Assembly: GCA_015709495.1 (NCBI GenBank)
Contig: CP054189.1
Location: 1,984,001 to 2,048,000, forward strand
Length of the DNA: 64,000 nt
Direction of reading: 5' to 3'
DNA from: Chthonomonadaceae bacterium
GTDB lineage: Bacteria > Armatimonadota > Fimbriimonadia > Fimbriimonadales > Fimbriimonadaceae
A program made the position numbers and the translations under genes. Positions 1 through 12,823 of the stretch are shown piece after piece; position 1 is the stretch's first letter, and each line of letters begins with the position of its first letter. Under the pieces are notes generated by a model that saw nothing but the letters and a program-made list of their open reading frames with translations, searched no databases and was not told the origin of the DNA.

Positions 1-694
1 GCTTGACGTCGATATCGTACGCGTTGTAATGCGTCAGAAACGGGCGCGCCGCCGCTCCACCCGCCACGATCTGGAGCATTGGAGTCTCGACCTCGACGTA
101 CCCTTGTTTCTCAAAGTATTTGCGGACGGCCGAAACGATCTTGCTGCGAGCTACCAGCGTGTCGCGCACCGGTTTGTTGGCGATGAGGTCCAGGTGCCTA
201 TGCCGGTAGCGCGCCTCGACGTCTTCGAGCGCATACCATTGCTGGCCGTCCTTCTCCTTGCCGATCGGCAGGGCGTGGAGGCACTTACTGAGTGGCTTGA
301 GTTCACGGACATGAATCGACCGCTCGCCGGTGCGGGTTCGAAACAGAAAACCAAGCACGCCCACATGGTCGCCGATGTCGAGCAGGGTGTACGCCTCCCA
401 CGCCTCCTCGCTGAGGTCATCCTTGCGGAAGTATGCCTGGATCTTTCCGTCTCCATCCGAAAGATGGGCGAATCCCGCCTTGCCCATCAGCCGATAGCTT
501 ACGATCCTGCCGGCAAACGCGACGTCCGGTGCCTCGGATTCGGCAAAATCCCCCTCGGAAGGAAACAGTTGCAGAAGATCGTCGGCAGAGCCTGTTGAGT
601 CAAACCGCTCGACCGCATACGGGTCGAGCCCCAACTCGCGAAGCCGCTCCAGCTTCTGAAGGCGAACGTCTCTCAAGGACAACTCTTCGGTCAT
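1..694 (-). CDS. lysS: Lysyl-tRNA synthetase, class II, N-terminal part (cut by window start)
   Basis: Charges tRNA-Lys with lysine in the cytoplasm. About 231 codons are visible, from an ATG at 692-694 to the window edge. The N-terminal region has the OB-fold anticodon-binding layout (VAFAGRIVSYRLMGK, then KIQAYFRKDDL). It is followed by the family stretch ALEDVEARYRHRHLDLI and the start of class II motif 1 (KYFEKQGYVEVETPML). The catalytic core with motifs 2 and 3 lies outside the window. The gene is divergent from the str cluster. It could be confused with aspartyl- or asparaginyl-tRNA synthetase, but the RYRHRHLDLI segment is typical of LysS. Confidence 0.93.
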   Translation of the reverse strand, partial: MTEELSLRDVRLQKLERLRELGLDPYAVERFDSTGSADDLLQLFPSEGDFAESEAPDVAFAGRIVSYRLMGKAGFAHLSDGDGKIQAYFRKDDLSEEAWEAYTLLDIGDHVGVLGFLFRTRTGERSIHVRELKPLSKCLHALPIGKEKDGQQWYALEDVEARYRHRHLDLIANKPVRDTLVARSKIVSAVRKYFEKQGYVEVETPMLQIVAGGAAARPFLTHYNAYDIDVK

Positions 695-798
695 TCGAAG
701 TAAGCATTCTACTTGACTTCCTCGGGGGGCGGGCCTGAGTGACGGACTGCCGAGAGGGTCCAACGGCCCGCCTGGAGTCCGCGAAGTCAAAGGAACGC

Positions 799-828
799 TT
801 GACAGCTTGATACCGGGCGCGTCATACT
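799..828 (+). promoter_or_regulatory. Probable promoter of the rpsL-rpsG-fusA operon
   Basis: A perfect -35 TTGACA (799-804), an 18-nt spacer and a -10-like CATACT (823-828). It is the best sigma-70-type match in the intergenic region and faces rpsL. Confidence 0.6.
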
Positions 829-938
829 ACGCCCAGGCACAACGAGGCGAGGCCTTTGCGTGTCGAATATCGGTCGAGGAGGCTGGGAGCCGGAGGATTC
901 TGAGAACGATTAAGGAGTCGGAATCGAGAAATGGGAGG

Positions 939-967
939 CCCCCTGCCGGCAGGTAGCGGGTTTTTTT
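939..967 (+). terminator. Attenuator-like hairpin in the rpsL leader
   Basis: A GC-rich palindrome (CCTGCCGGCAGG), with outer CCC/GGG pairs around a small bulge, is followed directly by seven T at 961-967. It lies downstream of the promoter and 70 nt before rpsL. It therefore looks like a transcription attenuator of the str operon rather than an end-of-gene terminator. No competing antiterminator was resolved by eye. Confidence 0.45.
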
Positions 968-1036
968 GTTGTCTTCCCGCCAGCGCCGACCGCGTTCGAC
1001 GCAGGGTCCGCGTGCCGCAAAGGACAAGAGAATCGT

Positions 1037-1417
1037 ATGCCAACAGTCAATCAACTGGTGCGGAAAGGGCGCAGGACGCCCAAGGTGAAGTCGAAGTCGC
1101 CGGCGCTCAAGGGCAACCCCCAGCGCAGGGGCGTCTGCACGATCGTACGAACGATGACGCCCAAGAAGCCCAATTCGGCTCTCCGCAAGGTGGCGCGCGT
1201 CCGATTGACGAATGGCGTCGAAGTCACGGCGTATATCCCCGGAATCGGCCACAACCTTCAGGAGCACTCGGTGGTGCTCGTTCGAGGCGGCCGTGTGAAG
1301 GACCTTCCCGGCGTGCGATACCACATCGTCCGCGGTACACAGCAGACTGCCGGCACGAACAACCGAATGCAAGGTCGCAGCAAATACGGTGCCAAGCGGC
1401 CGAAGGCGGCGAAGTAA
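1037..1417 (+). CDS. rpsL: 30S ribosomal protein S12
   Basis: 126 aa, the normal length for S12, a decoding-centre protein of the small subunit. The N-terminus [12 protein letters not shown] and the decoding loops [11 protein letters not shown] and [13 protein letters not shown] are intact. The lysines of both loops, where streptomycin-resistance changes commonly occur, are the wild-type residues, so this allele predicts streptomycin sensitivity at S12. It is the first gene of the str operon, followed 10 nt later by rpsG. Confidence 0.98.
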
Positions 1418-1427
1418 GGAGCGAGCG

Positions 1428-1898
1428 ATGCCGAGAAAAGGTCCAGTTTCCAAGCGAAGAATTCTTCCCGATCCGGTGTACGGCAGCGAACTTGCGCAGC
1501 GGTTCATCAACCGGATGATGCTCGACGGCAAGAAGTCCGTGTCTGAAAGGATTTTCTACTCTGCGATGGCCAACCTCGAACAGAAGACCGGAGAATCCGC
1601 GATCGAGGTGTTCGAGCGCGCCATGCAGAACGTGATGCCGAATGTTGAAGTGCGCCCGCGACGCGTGGGCGGCCAGACGTACCAAGTCCCGATGGACGTA
1701 CGGCCTGAGCGCCGACGCGCCCTCGCATTGCGTTGGCTCATCGAGTCCGCTCGGAAGAGGTCGGGCAACACGATGGTCGACAGGCTGACGTCTGAACTGC
1801 TCGACGCCGCCAACGGCACGGGCGTTGCGGTCAAGAAGCGCGAGGACACCCATCGCATGGCCGATGCGAACAAGGCGTTCTCGCACTATAGGTTCTAA
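1428..1898 (+). CDS. rpsG: 30S ribosomal protein S7
   Basis: 156 aa, the usual bacterial S7 length. S7 nucleates assembly of the 30S head by binding the 3' major domain of 16S rRNA. The start at 1428 is chosen because [10 protein letters not shown] is the family N-terminus and an AAGGAG-type ribosome binding site precedes it; a longer in-frame start inside rpsL is rejected. Family segments [23 protein letters not shown] and [18 protein letters not shown] are present. It sits between rpsL and fusA with short spacers, as in the classical str operon. Confidence 0.98.
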
Positions 1899-1909
1899 GG
1901 AAGGAACTT

Positions 1910-4039
1910 ATGGCACGGACGCATCCCCTCGAACGCATACGCAACATCGGTATTGCCGCTCATATCGACGCGGGCAAGACCACGACGACCGAGCGGATCC
2001 TCTATTACACGGGTCGCCAACACAAGATGGGCGAAGTTCACGAGGGCTCGGCGACGATGGATTGGATGGAGCAAGAGCAAGAGCGGGGAATCACCATCAC
2101 TTCCGCCGCGACGACTTGCTACTGGAAGGGAACCAACGGTGACCGAGAGGATCACCGCATCAACATCATCGATACGCCTGGACACGTCGACTTTACCGTC
2201 GAAGTCGAACGCTCGCTACGCGTTCTCGATGGCGTCGTAGCCGTATTCTGCGCCGTCGGTGGAGTCCAGCCCCAATCAGAAACCGTCTGGCGGCAGGCGA
2301 ACAAGTACAGCGTCCCCCGGATCATCTACGTGAACAAGATGGACCGCCTCGGGGCCAACTTCTTCGACGTGGTCGATAAGATTCGCCAGCGATTGGGTTC
2401 GAACGCCGCTCCGATCCAAGTGCCTTGGGGCGCGGAGAGCGATTACAAAGGGTACGTTGACCTCATCACCATGAAGGCGACGAAGTACACCTCCGACGAC
2501 GGCAAGCAATTCGAGGAAATCGACTGCCCGCCGGAGTTAGTGGAACTCGCAGCAGAATGGCGCGAGAAGATGATCGAGTCGATCGCCGACTTCGATGATT
2601 CCATCATGGAGACCTTCCTCGAAGGGGGAGAGATCAACGAAGCCGACCTCCGATCCGCGCTACGCAAGGGCACCATCGCCGGAAAGGTCGTGCCCGTCCT
2701 TAGCGGATCGAGCTTCAAGAACAAGGGCGTTCAGGCGATGCTCGATGCCATCGTCGATTTTCTGCCTTCGCCGCTCGACGTCGGTGCTGTTCATGGCGTC
2801 GATCCCAAGACCGAGCAAGAGGTCTTGCGACAGCCCGACGATAGCGAGCCTTTCTGCGCCCTAGCGTTCAAGATTATGAGCGACAAGTACGTCGGCAGGC
2901 TGACGTACCTGCGCGTGTACTCCGGGTTGCTCAAGAAGGGAAGTACGGTGCTCGTTTGCTACCGCGACCCGCAGACCAACGAACTTCGGAGCCGTTCGGA
3001 GCGGGTGGGCCGCATCCTTCAAATGCACGCCAACCACCGAGAGGACCTCGATGAGGCGGACGCAGGCTCGATCGTAGGCGTCATCGGCCTCAACGACGTG
3101 CATACGGGTCAAACGGTTTGCCAAGAGGGCAAAGCCGTGGTTTTGGAGGCTATCCGCTTCCCGGAGCCCGTCATTCAGATTGCGATCGAACCGAAAAGCC
3201 GCGCCGACCAGGAGAAACTGGCAACCTCGCTCCTCCGCCTGGCCCAAGAAGACCCGACGTTTCGGATGCACACCGACCAAGAGAGCGGCCAGACCATCAT
3301 TTCCGGCATGGGCGAACTCCACCTGGAGATCATCGTCGATCGTCTGAGCCGCGAGTTTGGAGTCCAAGCGAATCAAGGCAAGCCGCAGGTCGCCTATCGA
3401 GAGACCGTCCGGGTCAAGAGCAAGGCCGAAGGGCGCTTCGTTCGGCAAACGGGCGGTTCGGGCCAATATGGCCACTGCTGGCTCGAGTTGGAGCCGCTCC
3501 CACCTGGATCGGGGATTCAATTCGAGAACAAGGTCGTCGGCGGAGCGGTCCCGAAGGAGTTCATTCCTGCGATCGAGAAGGGCGTGCGCGAAGCGGCGCA
3601 ATCCGGCATTATGGCGGGCTATCCCGTCGTCGACGTAAAGATCTCGGTCGTGGATGGAAGCTATCACGAGGTCGACTCCAACGAAAACGCCTTTAGGCAG
3701 GCGGGCGTTCTTGGTTTTCGAGAAGGCATGAGGAAAGCGAACCCCGTACTGAAGGAGCCGATCATGCACGTCGAGGTGACGACGCCGGAAGCGAACGTAG
3801 GAGACGTAGTCGGCGACATTAACAGCCGCCGAGGACGAATTGAGGGCATGGAACCAGGCATGGGCGGGGTCACCGTCATCAATGCCCACGTGCCGCTCGC
3901 AGAGATGTTCGGGTATGTTACTACGTTGCGGTCTTTGACGCAAGGACGAGCGACGCCGAACGTAACACCCTCGCATTACGAGGAGGTTCCGCAGGGAATC
4001 GCGGCGGAAATCGTTGCGAAAGCCCAGGGCGGAAGATAG
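1910..4039 (+). CDS. fusA: Translation elongation factor G
   Basis: 709 aa, full-length EF-G, the GTPase that drives translocation of tRNA and mRNA on the ribosome. The P-loop [12 protein letters not shown] is at about residues 17-28, with switch [11 protein letters not shown] and the NKMD guanine-specificity motif after it. Domain IV shows GGSGQYGH and domain V shows [11 protein letters not shown] near the C-terminus. AAGGAAGG precedes the ATG. It is the last conventional gene of the str run here, because tuf, normally next, is displaced about 3.2 kb downstream by an accessory cassette. A run of 11 T follows at 4089-4099 but has no good stem in front. Confidence 0.98.
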
Positions 4040-4104
4040 GTTCCCCCACAACCGATACGGCGCCCTCTGTACCGGACACCTCGCAATCTTTTTTTTTTTG
4101 TATA

Positions 4105-4133
4105 TTCGGAATGGCCCTCCGGCGCGTTATAGT
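4105..4133 (+). promoter_or_regulatory. Candidate promoter of the pilin/MauE/C39 cassette
   Basis: TTCGGA (4105-4110), a 17-nt spacer and TATAGT (4128-4133), about 30 nt before the first cassette gene. It suggests the cassette has its own promoter and does not rely only on read-through from fusA. Confidence 0.45.
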
Positions 4134-4162
4134 GGTATCGGATCGTTGGTCTGGAGTCGAAC

Positions 4163-4852
4163 GTGCGCCAACTGCCGAGACGCCAAAAGGGGACCCTAGG
4201 GATGACTCTCATTGAAGTCATCTGCGTCGTGGGGATTGTCGCTTCCCTCGCAGCCCTCATGTTTCCGACGTTTGCAAGCAGCAGGCGCGCTGCTCAGGTC
4301 GGGGTGTGCCTGTCGAACCTACAGCAGTGCGATCGTGCCCTTAAGCTCTATAGCGTCGACTACGACGACATGGTGCCCCGAGGGAAGGACTGCGTGGACC
4401 TGCAGATTCCAGAGGTCCATCCCGCTTCCATTCGCCCAGAGATTCGAGCCATCCCTCTGCTGACCGATTTGACAGGGCCCTATCTTCAGAAGCGGGAGGT
4501 CTGGCGATGCCCGCTGGATTCCGGGACGTTGGCCCTCGATACCGCGCCGCACATGGCGTTTCCCAACCATCCTTCGCTGTTCGAATCGTGCGGAATGTCG
4601 TACTCGTTCATCACTAGCTTGGGCCTAGGCGCTAGTTGGACCTCGATCGAGCGGCTCAGCGAGCAGATGATCCTAGCCGACCAAGCGGGGCATTGGCATC
4701 CGGGTTCGCAAGCGCTCGATCCGCGAATGATGATCGGGGACCACATGACGCTCTGGCAAACCTACCGCTACAACATTGCCTACTTCGACGGGCATGTGGC
4801 CCAGAATCGTACGTACACGCAGCACCGCGATGCCTGGGGGCGCTCCCGATGA
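4163..4852 (+). CDS. Prepilin-like protein with N-terminal methylation motif and H-x-DG-type C-terminus
   Basis: 229 aa, GTG start. After a short basic leader comes a type IV prepilin cleavage/methylation site (KGTLG followed by MTLIEV) and one hydrophobic helix (VICVVGIVASLAALMFP), then a globular domain. The stretch CLSNLQQCDRALKLYSVDYDD and the C-terminal YFDGHVAQN are typical of the large pseudopilin families of Planctomycetota and Armatimonadota (DUF1559-like). Such proteins are processed by a prepilin peptidase and placed in the inner membrane or a pseudopilus; their individual roles are mostly unknown. Its stop overlaps the next start (ATGA), so it is probably translationally coupled to the MauE-like gene. 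Confidence 0.8.
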   Translation: MRQLPRRQKGTLGMTLIEVICVVGIVASLAALMFPTFASSRRAAQVGVCLSNLQQCDRALKLYSVDYDDMVPRGKDCVDLQIPEVHPASIRPEIRAIPLLTDLTGPYLQKREVWRCPLDSGTLALDTAPHMAFPNHPSLFESCGMSYSFITSLGLGASWTSIERLSEQMILADQAGHWHPGSQALDPRMMIGDHMTLWQTYRYNIAYFDGHVAQNRTYTQHRDAWGRSR

Positions 4853-5262
4853 GGTCGTTTGGCATGGCGCGCTGGGCGATTGTCGCCCTTCTTGTCGCCG
4901 CGGCCACCGCGAAGTTCGTCGATTTCGACGAAGCGATCGCTTCGATTGACCAGACCGATCTCCTGCCGGTCAAAGGTCAGAGGGCATTTCTTGCGGCCTT
5001 GATCAGCGTTGAGTTTCTGGCGGCCTTGCTGCTTACCCTATCAAGGTCCAGGTGGTTGTACCTTGGCCTTGGCGCGTTGTTCGCGGCTTTTGCTGGGTAT
5101 TCAGCGCTCAGGTTTCGATTGGGCCTACATGTCCCATGCTCCTGCTTCGGAGCTTTCGTCAAGATGCCTGCTTGGGCTTCGTTCTTGCTGAGCACCGCGA
5201 TTTGTCAAGTTTCTTTCAGCATGTTCTGGAAACAAAAACCCTATACGGAGAACCTATCATGA
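4849..5262 (+). CDS. MauE/DoxX-like redox-associated membrane protein
   Basis: 137 aa with four predicted membrane helices: residues about 5-20, 45-60, 65-82 and 103-120. The motif PCSCFG near residue 97 is the MauE-type Cys-x-Cys pair. MauE and relatives are inner-membrane proteins linked to disulfide formation or maturation of periplasmic cysteine-rich proteins, first known from methylamine dehydrogenase small-subunit maturation. Start and stop overlap the neighbouring genes by ATGA on both sides. The next gene encodes a secreted protein with eight cysteines, an obvious candidate client. That client relationship is inference from context. Confidence 0.7.
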   Translation: MRSFGMARWAIVALLVAAATAKFVDFDEAIASIDQTDLLPVKGQRAFLAALISVEFLAALLLTLSRSRWLYLGLGALFAAFAGYSALRFRLGLHVPCSCFGAFVKMPAWASFLLSTAICQVSFSMFWKQKPYTENLS

Positions 5263-5657
5263 TCAAGTCCCTCACACTCGTCCTATTGGCGGTTGTCTTC
5301 GGCTCCGCCACGGTCGCCACTCGGAAACCTGACCTTGAACCAGGCACGATCGATGCCAGAGTCGCCATCGGCTCGGGCTCGACATGCCGAATCGGTTGTA
5401 ACGACTGGCCAACGAGTCAGTGCGTCAACCACTGGCATATGATTAACGGAGTTCCTCACTTCGACTATTCTGAGTTGACAACTCGAAACCCTCACTTGGA
5501 GTGCGGATGGGCCTGGGGACAAGACACGTGCGTGCCCTTGCCAGATACCTTGTGCATAATGATACAACGCTTCATGGAGTATGATTGCGCTGGCGAGTAT
5601 TACGATCAGGACATAACCACCACAAGTACTTGTGAACTCCCCGGCAGCGGAGGATAG
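5259..5657 (+). CDS. Small secreted cysteine-rich protein, function unknown
   Basis: 132 aa. A short hydrophobic signal segment (residues 3-20, MIKSLTLVLLAVVFGSA) is followed by a mature region with eight cysteines at about residues 43, 47, 55, 82, 91, 99, 110 and 125. This is an even number, as expected for four disulfides. Histidines and tryptophans are frequent, for example VNHWHMINGVPHF. I do not recognise the family. It starts inside the end of the MauE-like gene (ATGA overlap), which couples its synthesis to a redox-type membrane protein. It could be a disulfide-stabilised exported peptide, a bacteriocin-like product or a pilus-associated minor component; the sequence alone does not decide. 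Confidence 0.6.
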   Translation: MIKSLTLVLLAVVFGSATVATRKPDLEPGTIDARVAIGSGSTCRIGCNDWPTSQCVNHWHMINGVPHFDYSELTTRNPHLECGWAWGQDTCVPLPDTLCIMIQRFMEYDCAGEYYDQDITTTSTCELPGSGG

Positions 5658-5661
5658 CAGA

Positions 5662-6618
5662 ATGCGGCTCGCTGCAGTATTGCTCGGTTGGATCGTTTTC
5701 GTCTGCATTGCCAGCGCAGACCTTCGCCAGGAAATCGCATCGAACCTCAGGCTGGGTAGAACGCAAGTCGAAGGTTGGGAGCTCAAGTGCCTGATTGGGA
5801 AACCAGAGGAGCCCAATTATGGCTACTGGACTGCCGGTTTCCACGAAGGGGCGAACTTCCTGAAGATCACACGGAACCACACGAACAAGGCCGGGGTCAC
5901 AAATCCCCTTACGATGGGCTACTTGAGGTGGAACGACATTCTCTATCAGTTTAACTATGGTGGAGACGAAACGAAACGAACTGTTGGAGGTGGCTCCATT
6001 TCCTCGAATGGATACATTGAGCAATCCGTGCTCATGGCCTATGAGCAGTGTGGACTGCGGTACGAGGACCTCGTTCAGTCCGCGGACTCCATTACTGGAG
6101 CGGGCAAGCAAAGGACAGTCACCGGACAACACGAGGGTCACCCCTACACGATCGTCGTCGAAAGGTTCCCGTTCGGATGGCGGGTTGTCGAGTTCAATAT
6201 CGAATACCTCTCGGGGTCGTTCGCTTCCCGCACACGGGGTCGACTCGAAGGCTGGACCGATAAAGCCGGAGTAACGCTCCCCCAAAGGGGCGCTCGCCAC
6301 CTCGAAGCTGTGAATCCAGAATTCGCTGGGCGGGGGAAGAGGCACCCTCGAGTGTTCGAGTGTGACTTCTCAACCCTGAAGCCTTCGACGAAGCTAACCC
6401 CGTTGGAAGTCTTCCGACCTGGCGCATTCGTGGTGGCTGGACCCTATAAGCTCCTGCAAATGACCGAGTCGGGGGAATTGGTGGATGGTTCCGGTCTCCT
6501 CAAAAAGCCGTTCCTCCCGTGGAACATCGCCTACGTGCTCTCCGTTGCGGGACTGGTGTTCTTTTCCTCGCTCTGGTTCTGGCAGTACAAGAGGAGGACC
6601 GCCGGATCGCGAAGGTAG
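5662..6618 (+). CDS. Secreted protein with C-terminal membrane anchor, function unknown
   Basis: 318 aa. It has an N-terminal signal peptide (MRLAAVLLGWIVFVCIASA), an extracytoplasmic domain of about 265 residues, one C-terminal membrane helix ([19 protein letters not shown]) and a basic tail ending RRTAGSRR. This type I topology places the domain outside the inner membrane. The ATG at 5662 is chosen because it begins the signal peptide; it lies 4 nt after the preceding stop. No known domain was recognised. Its 3' end overlaps the possible early starts of the C39-like peptidase gene. In context it may be the receptor, carrier or substrate of the cassette's peptidase. Confidence 0.6.
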   Translation: MRLAAVLLGWIVFVCIASADLRQEIASNLRLGRTQVEGWELKCLIGKPEEPNYGYWTAGFHEGANFLKITRNHTNKAGVTNPLTMGYLRWNDILYQFNYGGDETKRTVGGGSISSNGYIEQSVLMAYEQCGLRYEDLVQSADSITGAGKQRTVTGQHEGHPYTIVVERFPFGWRVVEFNIEYLSGSFASRTRGRLEGWTDKAGVTLPQRGARHLEAVNPEFAGRGKRHPRVFECDFSTLKPSTKLTPLEVFRPGAFVVAGPYKLLQMTESGELVDGSGLLKKPFLPWNIAYVLSVAGLVFFSSLWFWQYKRRTAGSRR

Positions 6619-7049
6619 CGCGATGGGGCCTGTGCGCGTTCGCCTTGCTGGCGGTCGCTCTCGTTTGGATGCGAGTACTTCAAGCTCAGCCAAGTTCCGG
6701 CTTTTGCGGCCACAGGGCCTTGGAGCGGTGGATGGAGGAGATAAAGTCCCCGGTCAAGACGAGGAACGAAGCCCTTGCGAAGCTCGCCTCCAGACCGCTG
6801 GTGAGTGTGGACGCGCTCTCGCGCTCCCTTTCCGAGGTCGGCGTGGCGCACCGCGTCGTATCGCCCGAGTTGCTGAACTCGGAAACGGTCCCGGCGATTC
6901 TGTGGCTGGACCGGGGCCATTTCGTCGTCGTCTTATCGCGCAGTGCACGGGGCTGGATCGTGTTCGACCCGGATGACTCCGAGCACAGCCGCTCATGGAG
7001 TGAAGATCGTCTCACCGCAGAGCGTGGAAGGCTTGCCATCGTACGATGA
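6519..7049 (+). CDS. Membrane-anchored C39-like cysteine peptidase without ABC transporter domains
   Basis: Up to 176 aa. A membrane helix ([16 protein letters not shown]) is followed by a C39-type domain: [10 protein letters not shown] with the candidate nucleophile Cys, then RGHFVVVLS with the His and [10 protein letters not shown] with the Asp. C39 peptidases cleave double-glycine leader peptides of exported peptides and usually sit at the N-terminus of ABC exporters; here the domain stands alone with a membrane anchor. The start is uncertain. The ATG at 6519 or GTG at 6558 lies inside the previous gene, and no good start is seen after that gene's stop at 6618. It closes the five-gene cassette. 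Confidence 0.6.
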
Positions 7050-7116
7050 ACGAGGCGAATTCAACGGAGAAACGAGCTCGAAAGCCCGAAATTCGCGAGC
7101 ATCGCCATCGCACAGG

Positions 7117-7122
7117 TATAAT
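7117..7122 (+). promoter_or_regulatory. -10 box of a probable tuf promoter
   Basis: A perfect TATAAT at 7117-7122, about 97 nt before the tuf start, with only a poor -35 (TTCGCG region near 7092). It suggests tuf has a separate promoter after being split from fusA. Confidence 0.5.
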
Positions 7123-7218
7123 CGTCCGTCGCATTCCCCACCGTGTGGTTGGGGTGAGACCGAAGTTGGGGCGACGGGTCGCCCCCCCGACCACGAGCAA
7201 GTCAAATCAAGAGTACCC

Positions 7219-8430
7219 ATGGCAAGAGCTAAGTTTGAGAGAACCAAACCGCACGTAAACATTGGAACAATCGGTCACGTCGACCACGGGAAAACGTCGT
7301 TGTCGGCGGCGATCACGTTCGTGCTGCAAGAAAAGGGCCTGGCGAAGGCCCAGAAGTACGATGAGATCGACGCCGCGCCGGAAGAGAAGGCTCGAGGCAT
7401 CACGATCAACATCGCGCACCTCGAGTACGAAACCGACAAGCGGCACTACGCGCACGTCGACTGTCCGGGTCACGCCGACTACATCAAGAACATGATTACG
7501 GGCGCGGCCCAGATGGACGGCGCGATTCTGGTCGTGTCGGCCGCTGATGGCCCCATGCCCCAGACAAGAGAGCACATTCTGCTCGCCCGTCAGGTCGGCG
7601 TCCCTTACATCATCGTCTATATCAACAAGACCGACCAAGTCGACGACCCCGAGCTCATCGATCTCGTCGAGCTTGAGGTTCGCGAACTCCTCAGCAAGTA
7701 CGGATTCCCCGGCGATGCGACTCCCATTCTCAAGGGTTCCGCGCTGAAGGTTCTCGACCAAGTCGAAGCGGGCAAGGTCGATTTCGACGACGCGAACACG
7801 AAGTCGATCCTTGAGTTGATGGACGCAGCGGACTCTTACATTCCAGAGCCCCAGCGCGACACGGACAAGCCGTTCCTGATGGCGGTCGAAGACGTGTTCA
7901 CGATCACGGGCCGCGGTACGGTTGCGACCGGCCGTGTCGAGCGGGGCCAGCTTCGCTCGATGGAGGAAGTCGAACTCGTGGGACTTCACCCCGAAATCAA
8001 GAAGACCGTCGTCACAGGCGTCGAGATGTTCCGAAAGACACTGGACTACTGTCAGGCGGGTGACAACGTCGGGCTGCTGCTTCGCGGCGTCGATCGCGAA
8101 ACCGTTGAGCGCGGAATGGTCCTCTGCAAGCCGGGTTCGATCAAGCCGCACACCAAGTTCGACTCCGAGGTGTACGTGCTCTCGAAGGAAGAAGGCGGCC
8201 GCCACACGCCATTCGTCTCCGGCTATCGTCCCCAGTTCTATTTCCGAACGACGGACGTTACCGGCACTCTCAACCTTCCTACGGGAGTCGAGATGTGTAT
8301 GCCGGGAGACAACGTGACGATGACCATCGAGCTGATTCAGCCGATCGCGATGGAGGTGGGCTCCAAATTCGCCATCCGTGAGGGTGGCCGAACCGTCGGA
8401 GCCGGTTCGATCACCAAGATATACGAGTAG
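7219..8430 (+). CDS. tuf: Translation elongation factor Tu
   Basis: 403 aa, the GTPase that delivers aminoacyl-tRNA to the ribosome. The start at 7219 is set by the family N-terminus [20 protein letters not shown]; longer in-frame starts upstream are rejected. The P-loop GHVDHGKT is at residues 19-26, switch II is DCPGHADY, and the guanine-specificity motif is NKTD, a mild variant of the usual NKVD or NKCD. The C-terminal barrels end with VGAGSITKI. In most bacteria tuf follows fusA directly; here an accessory cassette separates them. A terminator-like hairpin follows the stop. Confidence 0.98.
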
Positions 8431-8443
8431 AAAACTAGGAGGC

Positions 8444-8470
8444 GGCCCTCGACAATCGACGAGGGCCGTT
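8444..8470 (+). terminator. Probable intrinsic terminator between tuf and rpsJ
   Basis: An 8-bp perfect stem (GGCCCTCG / CGAGGGCC at 8444-8451 and 8460-8467) with an 8-nt loop, followed by GTTTCTCTT. The T tract is interrupted, so termination may be partial and rpsJ may be served by read-through. Confidence 0.55.
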
Positions 8471-8486
8471 TCTCTTCAAGGACACT

Positions 8487-8792
8487 ATGACCAACAAAGT
8501 TCGAATCCGACTCCGAGCGTTTGACCATCGCGTTCTCGACCTATCGGCTGAGAAGATCACAGAAACGGCCAAGCGTACGGGAGCTCGCGTGAAGGGGCCC
8601 ATCCCCTTGCCGACTAATATCCAAAGGTTCTGCGTGATTCGTGGGCCGCACATCGACAAGGAGTCGATGGAGCACTTCGAGTTGCGGACTCACAATCGTC
8701 TCATCGACATCGTCGAGCCCTCGAACAAGACAATCGACGCCCTGATGAGGCTGGACCTTCCGAGCGGAGTCGATATCGAAATCAAGAGCTGA
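8487..8792 (+). CDS. rpsJ: 30S ribosomal protein S10
   Basis: 101 aa, full-length S10, a head protein of the small subunit that also acts in NusB/NusE antitermination. The N-terminus [17 protein letters not shown] and the motifs GPIPLPT and [11 protein letters not shown] are diagnostic. In most bacteria rpsJ heads the S10 operon and is followed by rplC. Here a convergent flavoprotein gene follows instead, so rpsJ is separated from the rest of the S10 operon and linked to tuf. Confidence 0.97.
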
Positions 8793-8819
8793 GTCCTCTC
8801 CTCCTCGTAGACTCTTGCG

Positions 8820-8850
8820 ACGCCCTGCGGAAAACGTTTTCGCGGGGCGT
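8820..8850 (+). terminator. Terminator-like hairpin after rpsJ
   Basis: A long inverted repeat: ACGCCC with GGGCGT at the ends and a GAAAAC/GTTTTC core in the middle. There is no proper T tract on either strand. Its position between two convergent genes suggests a shared stem-loop that ends or stabilises both transcripts. Confidence 0.45.
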
Positions 8851-8867
8851 AACTCTGTCTGAACGGG

Positions 8868-10118
8868 CTATTCCGCGCCGGCGAACTCCGAAAGCGAGGC
8901 CAGGTCGAATCCCGGGCGGGACAGCAGGTCCTCCACGCGTCGCAAGTCGGCGCGAGAGAGGATCAGGGACCTCATGACTTCAAGTAGCGGCTCTTGCGCT
9001 TTCCAGTCTTGACGTAAGTCGATCAGGCCGGCAGCCCTACCGTCCTCGAACGCATACACCTCGGTCACAATGCTCGGGTCGTCGCTCTTTAGGGCCCACT
9101 TCCTCGCCGCCCTCTCCGGATAGCCGATGAGGTTCATCGACAGGTCGCCCACATCGGAAAAGAACACCGGAGGTTCGCGAAACTCGGCGATTTCGCCCGC
9201 CATCCCTCGCCCTGCGTGCTCTGCCGTCGCCTTCGCGTGCAGGTGGTGTTCCGCCCGGTACTGTTCGCCCAAGTTCGAGTCTGGGAACTCCACAGCGTCT
9301 CCTGCGACGAACACGTCGAGGTCTTCGGTGTAGAGCTGTGCGCCGGCCAACACTCCCTTGCGGACCGAAAGCCCGCTGGCCTTCGCCAACTCGGTACGCG
9401 GGAATGCCCCGATTCCGGCGACGATGAAATCGCCTTCGAACCGTTGTCCGTCTTCCGTGAACACGGTCCGTCCGTTCTCGATCCGGGTCACGTTGGCTCC
9501 CGCAACCAGCCTGACGCCTTTCGCTTGAAGTTCGCCGGTGATACTCTTCGAAACGGTTTCGGAAGGAAAGAGCGGCCATGCTCTCTGGCCGGCTTCAATC
9601 AACGTCACGCTGCAGCCGCGCCCAACCAAGGCGCAAGCGAGCTCCGCGCCAAGGTAGCCTGCGCCGATCAGAATCGCCGAAGCCCCCGAGCTCGCATGTC
9701 GACGAATCCTCGCGCTGTCCTCGGCCGTTCGAAGCACCCATGCTCCGTCCCCGCCGGGAATCGCAAGGCGGCGCGGCTCGCTCCCGAGGGCATAAAGGAG
9801 CTTGCCGTACTGAAATGATTCACCGCTTTCCGTGCCGACCGTCTTTGCGGATCGATCGATCGAGACGGCCCGCTTCCCCAGCAGAAGCTCGATTTGGTTT
9901 TGCGGATAGAAGCTCTCGTCTTTGCTGTGAAAGTCGTCGATGTTCTTCTCGTCGTTCCAAAGGAAGTACTTGGTGAAAGGCGGGCGGTCGTAGGGCGGTT
10001 CGGACTCCTCGCCCAACAGGGCGATCGTTCCGTTCGGATCGAGACTCCGGATCTGTACGGCTGCATAAGCGCAGGAAGTCCCGCCGCCCAGGAGCAAGTA
10101 GTCAAACACCTTCGGCAT
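8868..10118 (-). CDS. FAD/NAD(P)-dependent oxidoreductase, AIF / ferredoxin-reductase-like
   Basis: 416 aa. The N-terminal FAD-binding Rossmann motif is KVFDYLLLGGGTSCAYAA (residues 3-20), followed by GEESEPPYDRPPFTK, typical of apoptosis-inducing-factor and rubredoxin/ferredoxin reductase flavoproteins. A second dinucleotide fold (AILIGAGYLGAELA) binds NAD(P)H, and VFVAGDAVEF is the C-terminal FAD motif. Its electron partner is unknown. The start at 10118 has GAGGG just upstream and begins at the Rossmann strand; an upstream extension is rejected. It converges with rpsJ. Confidence 0.85.
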   Translation of the reverse strand: MPKVFDYLLLGGGTSCAYAAVQIRSLDPNGTIALLGEESEPPYDRPPFTKYFLWNDEKNIDDFHSKDESFYPQNQIELLLGKRAVSIDRSAKTVGTESGESFQYGKLLYALGSEPRRLAIPGGDGAWVLRTAEDSARIRRHASSGASAILIGAGYLGAELACALVGRGCSVTLIEAGQRAWPLFPSETVSKSITGELQAKGVRLVAGANVTRIENGRTVFTEDGQRFEGDFIVAGIGAFPRTELAKASGLSVRKGVLAGAQLYTEDLDVFVAGDAVEFPDSNLGEQYRAEHHLHAKATAEHAGRGMAGEIAEFREPPVFFSDVGDLSMNLIGYPERAARKWALKSDDPSIVTEVYAFEDGRAAGLIDLRQDWKAQEPLLEVMRSLILSRADLRRVEDLLSRPGFDLASLSEFAGAE

Positions 10119-10285
10119 GCCCTCATTGTGGCGCATTCTGTACGGCGAGGTAAGGAATAGCCTCTTGGTGAGTCCGCTGACGAGTTCCCAGGTCCGGGTC
10201 AGCCTCCGGATCCGTACTCCCGGCAATCCGCCAGCCCTGCCCGCGTCGTCGCTTGCGCGTCGAATGCCAAGTGCGAGACCTTATC

Positions 10286-12823
10286 TCAGGAAGGATTGGC
10301 GTACCGAGATCGTACTTCGAAGATTTCTTGAACGTCTCTTACTGTCAGTACCGTGTCATACAGTCCGATGGCCTCGCCCTCATGCTTGTTGATCCCCGTG
10401 TACGCGAGGCTGGAGTCCTCATACCGCTTAAACTTGTAAACGGCGTCGTTCATAAGGGCGCTGTTGAAAAGTCCAAGGCTTACAAGAAGCTCGAAGTCCT
10501 TGACATCGAGCCCAGTCACCTTCTTGAAGAGTCCCGGCTCCAGCTTCGTGATCACGTCCCGAAGCGTCCTTTCTCGATAGTCAGTTAGGTACATGAAGAT
10601 GGGAATCCGCGTCGCGAACTTGATCAGCTTCTCCTGAATCTCCTTTCGCTTGGATCTGTATTCCTTTTCGTCGTCGGAGAGTTGCTTCTTTTCCTTATCC
10701 GAAAGCTCGCGGTCGTTCGCTTCCTTCCGCGCCTTCTTCACCGAATCGGACTTGTTGATGATCGTTTCGATGTCCTGGTTGAGGCTTCGGAAACCCTCGA
10801 TGCTCATGATCGCTCGCAACGCCTCTTCATTGTCGAGGAGCTTCCTCAGCGTCCCGTTATCCACGTTTACAAGCAAAGCGCTCTCCCATCGCCGGGCGAG
10901 AAGCGGGGCAGTCGTGCCACTCATCGCCATGTCCAGGATTCCAGCGGCGTCGATCTGTTTCATGGAGCTGCCATCGTAGGCGAGCACAGGCAGGAAATCT
11001 ATGAACTCAGCCACCTTCTGTTCCGGACTCGTGGCTTCGTCTACGTTGAGTCGGCAGCCGTAGTCCGCGATCTGCCGTAGTGCGCGATCGGGCGCGAAGT
11101 CGAAGACATAGCACTCCTGCTTCAGAATCTCTTCGTGGTTAGGGTTCATCCCGTCGGGATTGAAGATCGTCCAGGGCGACTGAACGCGGAACGCGGATTG
11201 GAAGTAAGTCTCGGGGCTTTGCGAATTCCGCAGCATCAAAATCCCGGTCCAGGGCCGCACGGTGACCCCTGTGGTCAGCTTGCCGCACGTCAAAGTGATC
11301 GTCCTGGTGGCAAGGGGATCGTCCATCGCGTCCAAGACCGGCTTCAGGGCGGCCATGCCGATTCCAGCTTCGGTCCCGGCAGCGACGATCACTCGATAGC
11401 CGTGAAAGAACCGATTCTGCCGCTTCTTCAGTAGGTTCGCCATCGCATGGCACGACGCAACGTTCGGGAGGAACCAGATCGTGTGGGAAAGCACTTCCAG
11501 AAGTCGCGCGTCGGAGAAGGGCAGCGGCGGCTTCCTGGCGCCGAGCTTTAGGTTGTCAACAGTAGCGGGCGCATAGGAGCCGCGGATGAGGTCGAGCCAC
11601 TTCTGCACCTCGTCCTCATACTTGAACGTCGCCTGCGCACCGGCTCCTGTCGCCGAGAAGAACGCGTTCAAGTCGAAGCCGTCGAACTCTCCGCGCATTG
11701 CGATGTCCCGAATGTCGTCTGGGAGTTGGTAGGTCATCAAGACCATGCGCGGGAGCGGCAGATAGGGGTTGTCGGCCCCCTTCCAGTCGCGCTTGGCCCT
11801 TTGCTCGTCGGAATACGTCCAGTTGAAAATCTGCTCCTCGATGAACTCCCCCGAGGCGATGGCCCGGAACGGCGTACCAGATAGGTAGAGGTAGGCGTTC
11901 GTCGTGATCGGCATGGAGTCTTCGTCGAAGTATTTAATGCCTTCACCCTCTTCGAACTCGAGCTGCCGCTGGTCTTCCCCTTCGAAGAGGTCCTTGGCCG
12001 CCTCACGCCACGCGCCGTAGTGATACTCGTCGAGAATCACAAGGTCCCAATTGTCGTTGTGCACCCATTCGTTCTTCGTCTTGATGCCGCCCGTGCTCGT
12101 GTTCTTGCCCAGGTAATCCTGGAAAGACCCGAAGCAAACGATCGGGCGGCTCTTGTCGTAAGCCGGCTCACCCGTCTTCGGCACGTCCTTGCTGGCCACG
12201 AAGTGCCAGCCCTCGAAGTCGGTGTGCGTCTTAACGTCCTCTTCCCAAGCGCTTTGGACGGCGGGTTTGAAGGTGAGCACGAGGATGCGCTTCCAGCCCA
12301 TCTTCTTCGCCAGTTGGTAGGCGGCGAACGTCTTCCCAAAGCGCATCTTGGCGTTCCAGAGGAAGTGCGGCGGCTTGGTGGCGTCGTCGGCGAGGGCGTC
12401 TGAAAAGTACTGCGCCGTCTTTTCGACCGCGCGCTGCTGCTCGGGCCGCATGGCGAAGCTGCGCGTGCGGTTCTCCTCACTCTCCTTGCCTTCCACCAGC
12501 GCGATGATCGCTGCGCGCACGTCGTCCACCGTGCACTTGAACCACTCGCCCGCTTCGTTGCGCAGGCCTTTCTTGCGGAGGACGCGATGCACGTCGCGGT
12601 CGGTAAACGCGGTGCCGTCAGCGCGCATCGCCGATTCCTCAAGGTGGATGATGTAGGGCGGATCGCCGGGCCGCACGGTTGGATATTGCTGCGCGATTCG
12701 GGCACGCGCGTTGCCGGTCGTGTAGCCGACCTTGAGGAGCCCCGCGTATTGGGGATTGGTGTCCTCATAGGCGTAAACAACGGGGTTGGCCGCTGGTCGG
12801 GAGTGGAAGAACGTGTTGCTCAT
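10286..12823 (-). CDS. GIY-YIG nuclease / superfamily 2 helicase fusion, restriction-type
   Basis: 845 aa. Residues about 14-100 resemble the GIY-YIG (T5orf172) nuclease fold: VVYAYED, GLLKVGYTT, and a conserved Glu in GEWF. A DEAD/DEAH-type helicase follows, with NAKMRFGKT (Walker A, residues about 157-165), DLVILDEYHYG (motif II, about 260-270) and SGTPFRA (motif III). The C-terminal part is charged and coiled-coil-like (KKARKEANDRELSDKEKK). The domain order suggests an ATP-driven restriction subunit that translocates on DNA and cuts it. It is the last gene of the defence operon and overlaps the four-helix gene by ATGA. Confidence 0.78.
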   Translation of the reverse strand: MSNTFFHSRPAANPVVYAYEDTNPQYAGLLKVGYTTGNARARIAQQYPTVRPGDPPYIIHLEESAMRADGTAFTDRDVHRVLRKKGLRNEAGEWFKCTVDDVRAAIIALVEGKESEENRTRSFAMRPEQQRAVEKTAQYFSDALADDATKPPHFLWNAKMRFGKTFAAYQLAKKMGWKRILVLTFKPAVQSAWEEDVKTHTDFEGWHFVASKDVPKTGEPAYDKSRPIVCFGSFQDYLGKNTSTGGIKTKNEWVHNDNWDLVILDEYHYGAWREAAKDLFEGEDQRQLEFEEGEGIKYFDEDSMPITTNAYLYLSGTPFRAIASGEFIEEQIFNWTYSDEQRAKRDWKGADNPYLPLPRMVLMTYQLPDDIRDIAMRGEFDGFDLNAFFSATGAGAQATFKYEDEVQKWLDLIRGSYAPATVDNLKLGARKPPLPFSDARLLEVLSHTIWFLPNVASCHAMANLLKKRQNRFFHGYRVIVAAGTEAGIGMAALKPVLDAMDDPLATRTITLTCGKLTTGVTVRPWTGILMLRNSQSPETYFQSAFRVQSPWTIFNPDGMNPNHEEILKQECYVFDFAPDRALRQIADYGCRLNVDEATSPEQKVAEFIDFLPVLAYDGSSMKQIDAAGILDMAMSGTTAPLLARRWESALLVNVDNGTLRKLLDNEEALRAIMSIEGFRSLNQDIETIINKSDSVKKARKEANDRELSDKEKKQLSDDEKEYRSKRKEIQEKLIKFATRIPIFMYLTDYRERTLRDVITKLEPGLFKKVTGLDVKDFELLVSLGLFNSALMNDAVYKFKRYEDSSLAYTGINKHEGEAIGLYDTVLTVRDVQEIFEVRSRYANPS

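Follow-up and report, generated by a model that had tools for sequence, protein, structure and literature searches.

A recurring gene core of MauE, a cysteine-rich exported protein and a membrane-anchored protein in Armatimonadota, joined by a C39 peptidase between fusA and tuf: a candidate unit for maturation and export of a disulfide-rich protein

The locus described here lies in a 64,000-nucleotide stretch (hereafter, the window) of a Chthonomonadaceae bacterium genome comprised of a single contig of 2,897,187 bp, and consists of five plus-strand genes (g1 to g5) placed between fusA (1910-4039) and tuf (7219-8430). The first gene (g1, 4163..4852, GTG start) encodes a prepilin/pseudopilin-like protein of 229 aa (TIGR02532), the closest cassette relative of which is the pilin of the G131 cassette (G and L numbers denote genomes and loci, respectively). 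It is followed by g2 (4849..5262), encoding a membrane thiol oxidoreductase of the MauE family (Pfam MauE); g3 (5259..5657), encoding a putatively Sec-exported protein of 132 aa with eight cysteines downstream of its signal peptide (the 8-Cys protein), which is the proposed product of the cassette; g4 (5662..6618), encoding a protein with a signal peptide and a C-terminal transmembrane (TM) segment, proposed to be a membrane-anchored partner with a LolA fold; and g5 (6606..7049), encoding a C39 (double-glycine) peptidase. The g1/g2 and g2/g3 pairs are joined by ATGA overlaps, g3 and g4 are 4 bp apart, and g4 and g5 overlap; the gene coordinates thus agree with the description in the first-pass annotation of five co-oriented genes, overlapping or nearly so, that split fusA from tuf. 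A promoter of the cassette's own, also suggested there, was not recovered, as scanning with the consensus revealed no sigma-70-like site on the plus strand ahead of g1, and an Rfam scan of window positions 1-12000 yielded no match. The whole gene set is present in a second genome of the same species (G159), with 10 differences across 4041-7215; the surrounding 10 kb is 97.55% identical, and g5 differs at one position only (7030).

The cassette has a core, in which MauE is combined with a small Cys-rich protein that is exported and a protein anchored by its C-terminus. This core is found repeatedly in the Armatimonadota, and is no accident of the window locus. Matches to the window MauE protein were found in 6 of 61 genomes (one of which is the window's own), and a MauE profile at 1e-5 has matches in 59 of the 291 genomes of the phylum. 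Among the 47 MauE loci examined, an automatic rule places an exported Cys-rich open reading frame (ORF) after 21 MauE genes, and both this ORF and an anchored protein after 17, compared with 4/323 and 1/323, respectively, for control ORFs from the same loci (p 5e-16). The rule misses some cases that are apparent on visual inspection (L077, L082, L086, L093). At 22 of the 47 loci, mostly those with weaker MauE matches, there is no Cys-rich exported ORF downstream by rule or by eye, and at L040 MauE stands alone. 8-Cys proteins were also found without MauE at L151, L152, and L153, in each instance followed by an anchor-sized protein. In G131 (L081), which belongs to another genus, pilin, MauE, 8-Cys protein, anchor, and C39 occur in an order identical to that of the window, with phmmer E-values between the two of 2e-43 for the pilin, 1.9e-17 for the 8-Cys protein, and 3.9e-4 for the C39. 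That the gene set forms a unit away from fusA is thus supported, by the core triad at many loci and by the five-gene order in G131. A C39 gene immediately follows the anchor gene in G075, G092, G093, and G141 as well, and anchor-then-C39 loci in G103 and G097 are disrupted by transposase genes.

The window's own genome has a second copy (L090), in which MauE is present as a fusion and is accompanied by genes for a 7-Cys protein, an anchor, and a pilin. It is located at approximately 1870767-1874010 of the contig (G000:C1; L090 6268-9510), next to ribosomal protein genes that include rplE, and two copies in this genome thus neighbor ribosomal operons. Transposase genes are inserted and MauE is truncated at the C39-bearing loci L149 and L150, and an 8-Cys gene (L093 6730-7134) has a premature stop. 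Weak P0003 matches in other relatives were also inspected (L044-L046), and none of these loci has the cassette.

The 8-Cys proteins belong to one family, with seven invariant cysteines across 16 aligned members. The window protein is found by a leave-one-out profile with an E-value of 2e-12; the best background in this search includes true family members, and its ranks are therefore no control. Among the 27 proteins examined in this manner, six (L041, L078, L090, L092, L092b, L098) scored above 1e-3 or were unmatched, and may be another type. The AlphaFold model of the 8-Cys core is all beta, with a predicted local distance difference test (pLDDT) score of 90-98. The product would accordingly be a precursor of 110-150 aa, predicted to form a small beta protein, rather than the peptide envisaged in the first-pass annotation. 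Known families were considered for this protein and set aside: none of the 16 members is matched in Pfam or NCBIfam above chance level, and searches for a known sequence or fold returned no PDB sequence match, a best Foldseek E-value of 0.77, and a best VIA Z of 4.6. There may be some likeness to the NVEALA peptides of Bacteroidota, which have a Sec-like N-terminus, a conserved motif, a Cys-rich tail, and MauE nearby; the Pfam scan of the 16 members did not list NVEALA, and a literature search on the name was empty.

The assignment of g2 to MauE (PF07291) is clear (E 5.2e-17, 62.8 bits vs. a cut-off of 27), and its invariant columns include K22, E55, and C97-x-C99-F. In L092, MauE is fused to a DSBA domain, and in L041 a fusion to a thioredoxin domain is weakly detected. 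The pilin-like g1 has a G|MTLIE cleavage site and a C-terminal FDGH motif; its prepilin motif scores 16.6 bits against TIGR02532, just above the cut-off of 16.3, and 16 against Pfam N_methyl, below the cut-off of 21.2. Pilin-like matches number 33 in the window's genome, along with four secretins and one prepilin peptidase, and no cassette is found at L117, the closest pilin to g1 in this genome. The pilin is an optional neighbor of the cassette, present by rule at more of the loci than would be expected either from control loci (2.1%, p 2e-4) or from the density of pilins in the window's genome (3.4%, p 0.0017); the rule missed the additional pilin of L090.

The anchored proteins also constitute a family, with 20 of 27 recovered below 1e-4 by leave-one-out hidden Markov models (HMM). 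When modeled (mean pLDDT 66.6), the G131 anchor matches LolA3 in Foldseek at 6.7e-7, with a Z of 14.6 to 3bk5 (root-mean-square deviation, rmsd, 3.6; 209 aligned) and 9tp6 (rmsd 3.2, 205 aligned). This model suggests that the G131 anchor has the LolA/LolB fold, to which g4 of the window may be linked by an hhalign match to the anchor family in its C-terminal half (E 3.5e-4, probability 37). The description of g4 as an anchored protein stands, given the N-terminal signal and C-terminal TM segment read from its sequence, and is refined by the G131 relative to putative membership of a LolA-fold family. Furthermore, the anchor is fused to C39 twice in G205 and once in G206 (in a G205 fusion, LolA_like scores 29.4 bits in Pfam, with a cut-off of 30, and C39 scores 61 bits), which supports joint action of the anchor and C39.

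In the C39 protein encoded by g5, the catalytic Cys (C63; 6705-6707, plus strand) and His (H134; 6918-6920, plus strand) are invariant in an alignment (A4) of five C39 domains that includes the window, and a probable catalytic Asp is encoded at 6966-6968 (plus strand). The best PDB match of the A4 profile is 6mpz, a double-glycine protease domain (E 1.6e-8), and the C39 profiles match the double-glycine proteases of PCAT and ComA best. The relatives' C39 proteins pass the Pfam cut-off with 32-72 bits (49.9, 49.5, 40.1, and 32.1 in the cassette relatives). The gene ends at 7049, after the peptidase domain and with tuf next, and there is no fusion to an ATP-binding cassette (ABC) transporter. 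With the candidate start at ATC 6606, the protein has one N-terminal hydrophobic segment, and a Shine-Dalgarno-like element read from the sequence, AAGAGGAGG (6589..6597, plus strand), lies 8 nt upstream; alternatively, AAGAGGAGG may just encode the KRR end of g4. An N-terminal hydrophobic segment also precedes C39 in L081, L083, L148, and L199. Since many of the relatives' C39 proteins start with one signal-like segment, the domain should lie outside the cytoplasm, and for the window protein this needs the ATC 6606 start.

Double-glycine leaders are defined by the pattern LSx2ELx2IxGG (PMC3897388). In C39-bearing cassettes, the 8-Cys proteins have segments resembling this pattern between the Sec signal and the first core cysteine: LTRAEMNLTRGA in G131, LTLGEMKAAQGA in G141, LSAEEMKDTGGR in G075, and LTKAEMNCSAGK in G092 and G093. 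The motif of the relatives at the leader position is LTxxEMxxxxG[AKR], and no bacteriocin leader model in NCBIfam matched the five leader pieces. A leader regular expression, drawn up after most of the motifs had been viewed, is matched by 5/6 of the 8-Cys proteins with C39 and 0/19 of those without (p 1.1e-4), by 4/5 and 0/18 with near-duplicates removed (p 5.6e-4), and by 3/4 and 0/18 with G141 removed in addition (p 2.6e-3); these Fisher tests exclude L039 and L042, which are at contig ends, and the window protein stands for L077. In the window, alignment A7 places a degenerate double-glycine-type leader in g3 at 5340..5375 (plus strand), PGTIDARVAIGS.

The association of leader and peptidase extends beyond the cassette. 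The C39 profile has matches in 72 of 291 genomes, from which 32 loci were chosen by hand, beginning with cassettes and continuing mostly with short open frames, and are therefore no random sample. Using a rule that requires a fixed-spacing leader motif with a preceding hydrophobic segment, in an ORF within 3 kb of C39, a Sec-plus-leader ORF occurs near 11/32 C39 loci and 0/88 control loci (p 1.1e-7); with a looser motif, the counts are 16/32 and 6/88. Because some of these loci had been seen beforehand, the fairer comparison is given by the 13 loci with neighbors unread before the expression was set, of which five are positive (p 1.6e-5). Some of the neighbors are Cys-rich. Next to the anchor-C39 fusions of G205 are proteins that carry LSESQMENAKAG and LSEVQMENAKAG; the 8-Cys profile recognizes one of these proteins at 5.9e-7. 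G229 encodes a Cys-rich protein with LTSEDLAALHGG, followed by an exported protein of 297 aa (no Pfam match), as well as a C39-DUF1573 fusion. A third locus in the window's genome (L207) is comprised of C39, a DUF1573-like protein (below the cut-off), a thioredoxin-bearing membrane protein (VKOR-like on visual inspection), a Cys-rich protein with a Sec signal and the leader NAELDLVVGG, and a pilin, and G138 has the same gene order. The L207 locus is at approximately 2095239-2099483 of the contig (G000:C1; L207 3240-7484). Large exported proteins with a Sec signal and a double-glycine leader were also observed beside C39 (L190, L191, L193-L196, L157, L201-L203). Their leaders come after signal-like segments, the three that were scanned (L190, L201, L157) are RHS-repeat proteins, and L201 and L202 bear the leader motif and fall outside the count of the rule.

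Taken together, these observations make it likely that the cassette serves to mature and export a secreted protein rich in disulfides. The 8-Cys precursor, which has a signal peptide, would be exported by Sec, and disulfide formation outside the cytoplasm would be driven by MauE, as suggested by its family, the CxC motif, its genetic linkage to the 8-Cys gene, and the fusions of MauE to DsbA or thioredoxin in some relatives. The membrane-anchored protein, with the fold predicted for its relative, may bind or hold the precursor at the membrane beside C39. Where it is encoded, an exported or anchored C39 would then remove a second, double-glycine-type leader, situated downstream of the Sec signal peptide and ahead of the first core cysteine, and thereby release the mature protein; the co-occurrence of leader and C39 suggests that the peptidase probably acts outside the cytoplasm on this second leader. 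More speculatively, the pseudopilin may push out the product or scaffold it, via the shared prepilin peptidase and secretins of the genome. The earlier suggestion that the genes make, fold, and process a disulfide-rich protein fits the linkage of MauE to the 8-Cys protein and of the leader to C39. Competition or surface interaction are the likeliest guesses for the role of the product. In a broader scheme, which we favor by a modest degree, Armatimonadota would possess a general extracytoplasmic double-glycine pathway, in which a Sec signal, a bacteriocin-type leader, and a cargo are combined and a stand-alone exported C39 cuts the leader; the latter would be a tag for sorting or activation after Sec export, with docking to the LolA-fold protein. 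The cassette of the window would be one branch of this pathway, with cargo ranging from 8-Cys beta proteins (for which MauE or a VKOR-like protein would be the oxidase) to proteins of 700-1500 aa, some of them RHS proteins.

The best-known role of C39 peptidases is to control the export of bacteriocins, in which they form the cytosolic part of ABC transporters. The cassette C39 is closest to such domains (PCAT/ComA), and the leader of its relatives is near LSx2ELx2IxGG; it differs in that the cassette has no ABC transporter, the leader comes after a Sec signal, and the peptidase is proposed to act on the opposite side of the membrane. We file the system, on the basis of co-occurrence, as C39 leader processing that may have been relocated outside the cytoplasm. 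A review of RiPP (ribosomally synthesized and post-translationally modified peptide) proteases places C39 within PCATs (PMC10885120), and a survey of polymorphic toxins lists C39-like domains among toxin domains (PMC3482391). The precedent for a periplasmic C39 is FapD, with a target that is reported to be unclear (PMC5557850), as a later review likewise states of its substrate (PMC6173800); according to the former, the Fap proteins do not have canonical C39 sequences, and a class of periplasmic C39 peptidases awaits characterization. As in FapD (PMC5557850, PMC6173800), the cassette C39 may have a Sec signal, is separate from an ABC transporter, and is encoded with Sec-exported candidate substrates. 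FapD has been shown to be active in the periplasm. The Fap system has amyloid-repeat substrates and the FapF pore, in contrast to the Cys-rich protein, MauE, and LolA-fold partner found here, and relatives of the cassette carry a near-canonical leader. There are no amyloid repeats in the Cys-rich g3 protein, and none of the five genes resembles one for an outer-membrane barrel (a FapF homolog was not searched for elsewhere in the genome). The anchor resembles the LolA/LolB/RseB superfamily (DUF1329, Pfam LolA_like) in the fold predicted for the G131 protein, and differs from it in being held by a C-terminal TM segment, in the placement of its gene after the 8-Cys gene, and in its fusion to C39 in two genomes. 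In the literature searched, which was covered in part, no description was found of a system with this gene set, as the first-pass annotation had supposed, or of Sec signals combined with double-glycine leaders; the recurring cassette is real and apparently undescribed.

Several observations weigh against the maturation and export reading. The evidence for it derives entirely from sequences and predictions, the five genes include neither an ABC exporter nor one for the outer membrane, and g4 of the window escapes the anchor family HMM (E 6.7). By rule, a pilin is found within 1.3 kb at only 5 of 26 loci. The graded leader score is related to C39 status with p 0.07 in a search region that clipped the G092/G093 motif, and with p 0.04 (strict) or 0.004 (relaxed) in another. 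The start of g5 is uncertain, and with translation from GTG 6519 the protein would have two hydrophobic segments, which would place the peptidase in the cytoplasm. The remaining points bear on a rival that we regard as unlikely, yet as the strongest of those considered, in which the product is exported and disulfide-bonded but C39 is a non-cleaving chaperone or is directed at a different target, with the leader function perhaps being lost in the window copy. This would be consistent with the degenerate window leader (just an acidic residue and GS are kept, and PGTIDARVAIGS fails every regular expression), with a Pfam C39 (PF03412) score for g5 of 21.6 bits (E 2e-4), just below the cut-off of 22, with the two other C39-bearing loci broken by transposase genes, and with the fact that most cassettes manage without C39. 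The invariance of Cys and His in all five aligned C39 domains, including that of the window, argues against this rival, however, as do the association of leader and C39 and the single difference in g5 between the window and G159.

Far less probable is a role in the maturation of a redox enzyme, in which the 8-Cys protein would be a small electron-transfer subunit, similar to the MauA light chain, matured by MauE. MauE is known from the maturation of methylamine dehydrogenase, and has been reported from three Streptomyces families of candidate RiPPs identified by decRiPPter (PMC7794033), so that in both instances, as here, it occurs beside a small disulfide-bonded or precursor-like product; additionally, the 8-Cys family has recurrent tryptophans close to its third and fourth cysteines. 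Nevertheless, the window protein does not have these conserved tryptophans, no such subunit was matched in Pfam or NCBIfam, and neither a large catalytic subunit nor another mau gene is among the ORFs listed beside the cassettes. The cassette also differs from the mau cluster in its LolA-fold and C39 partners.

The location between fusA and tuf is specific to this species. The statement that these two genes are normally adjacent is true in a loose sense: among the tuf loci of 20 relatives, the spacing is below 35 bp in 6 and approximately 300-350 bp in 2, other genes intervene in 6, and no fusA is present within the fetched stretch in 6. The cassette is absent from the 8 fusA-tuf intervals of relatives that were inspected, and 6 intervals are too short for it; in G001, of the same genus as the window, the gap is 345 bp, and no match to the window MauE protein was found in that genome. 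Differing inserts occur between fusA and tuf at L175, L176, L178, L184, L185, and L172 (a sensor kinase/regulator pair, a pilin, and others), as if this interval were an insertion-prone site. Because the site is often interrupted, and the cassette is absent there in relatives, the neighborhood with translation genes is no conserved feature, and the proposal that placement beside fusA and tuf ensures strong expression is not upheld, as other copies of the cassette are elsewhere. An accidental grouping of unrelated envelope genes at such a site, to which the short gap and missing MauE match in G001 and the different inserts in six other relatives might point, is scarcely credible given that the set and its order are kept in G131 and the core in many other genomes.

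If the proposed pathway is correct, the Sec-exported, leader-bearing proteins encoded beside many exported C39 proteins provide concrete candidate substrates for the class of periplasmic C39 peptidases. The analysis also defines an unannotated 8-Cys family in the Armatimonadota, a phylum in which secretion and competition have been little studied, and links this family with a thiol oxidase and a LolA-fold anchor.

Several further genes were observed in the vicinity of these cassettes. In several genomes from other families, a DUF2079-type membrane protein is encoded after the cassette, at L083 (8924-10591), L097 (2244-3893), L093 (8915-10531), L082 (2315-4852), and L150 (7211-8899), with the DUF2079 assignment made by Pfam for L083 and L097 only. 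Near the cassette of G094, L084 encodes a 12-Cys protein with a twin-arginine-like N-terminus (3260-3721), along with a pilin gene. In the window itself, a 70-codon candidate ORF at 7046-7258 has an ATGA overlap with the end of the C39 gene and extends into the start of tuf.

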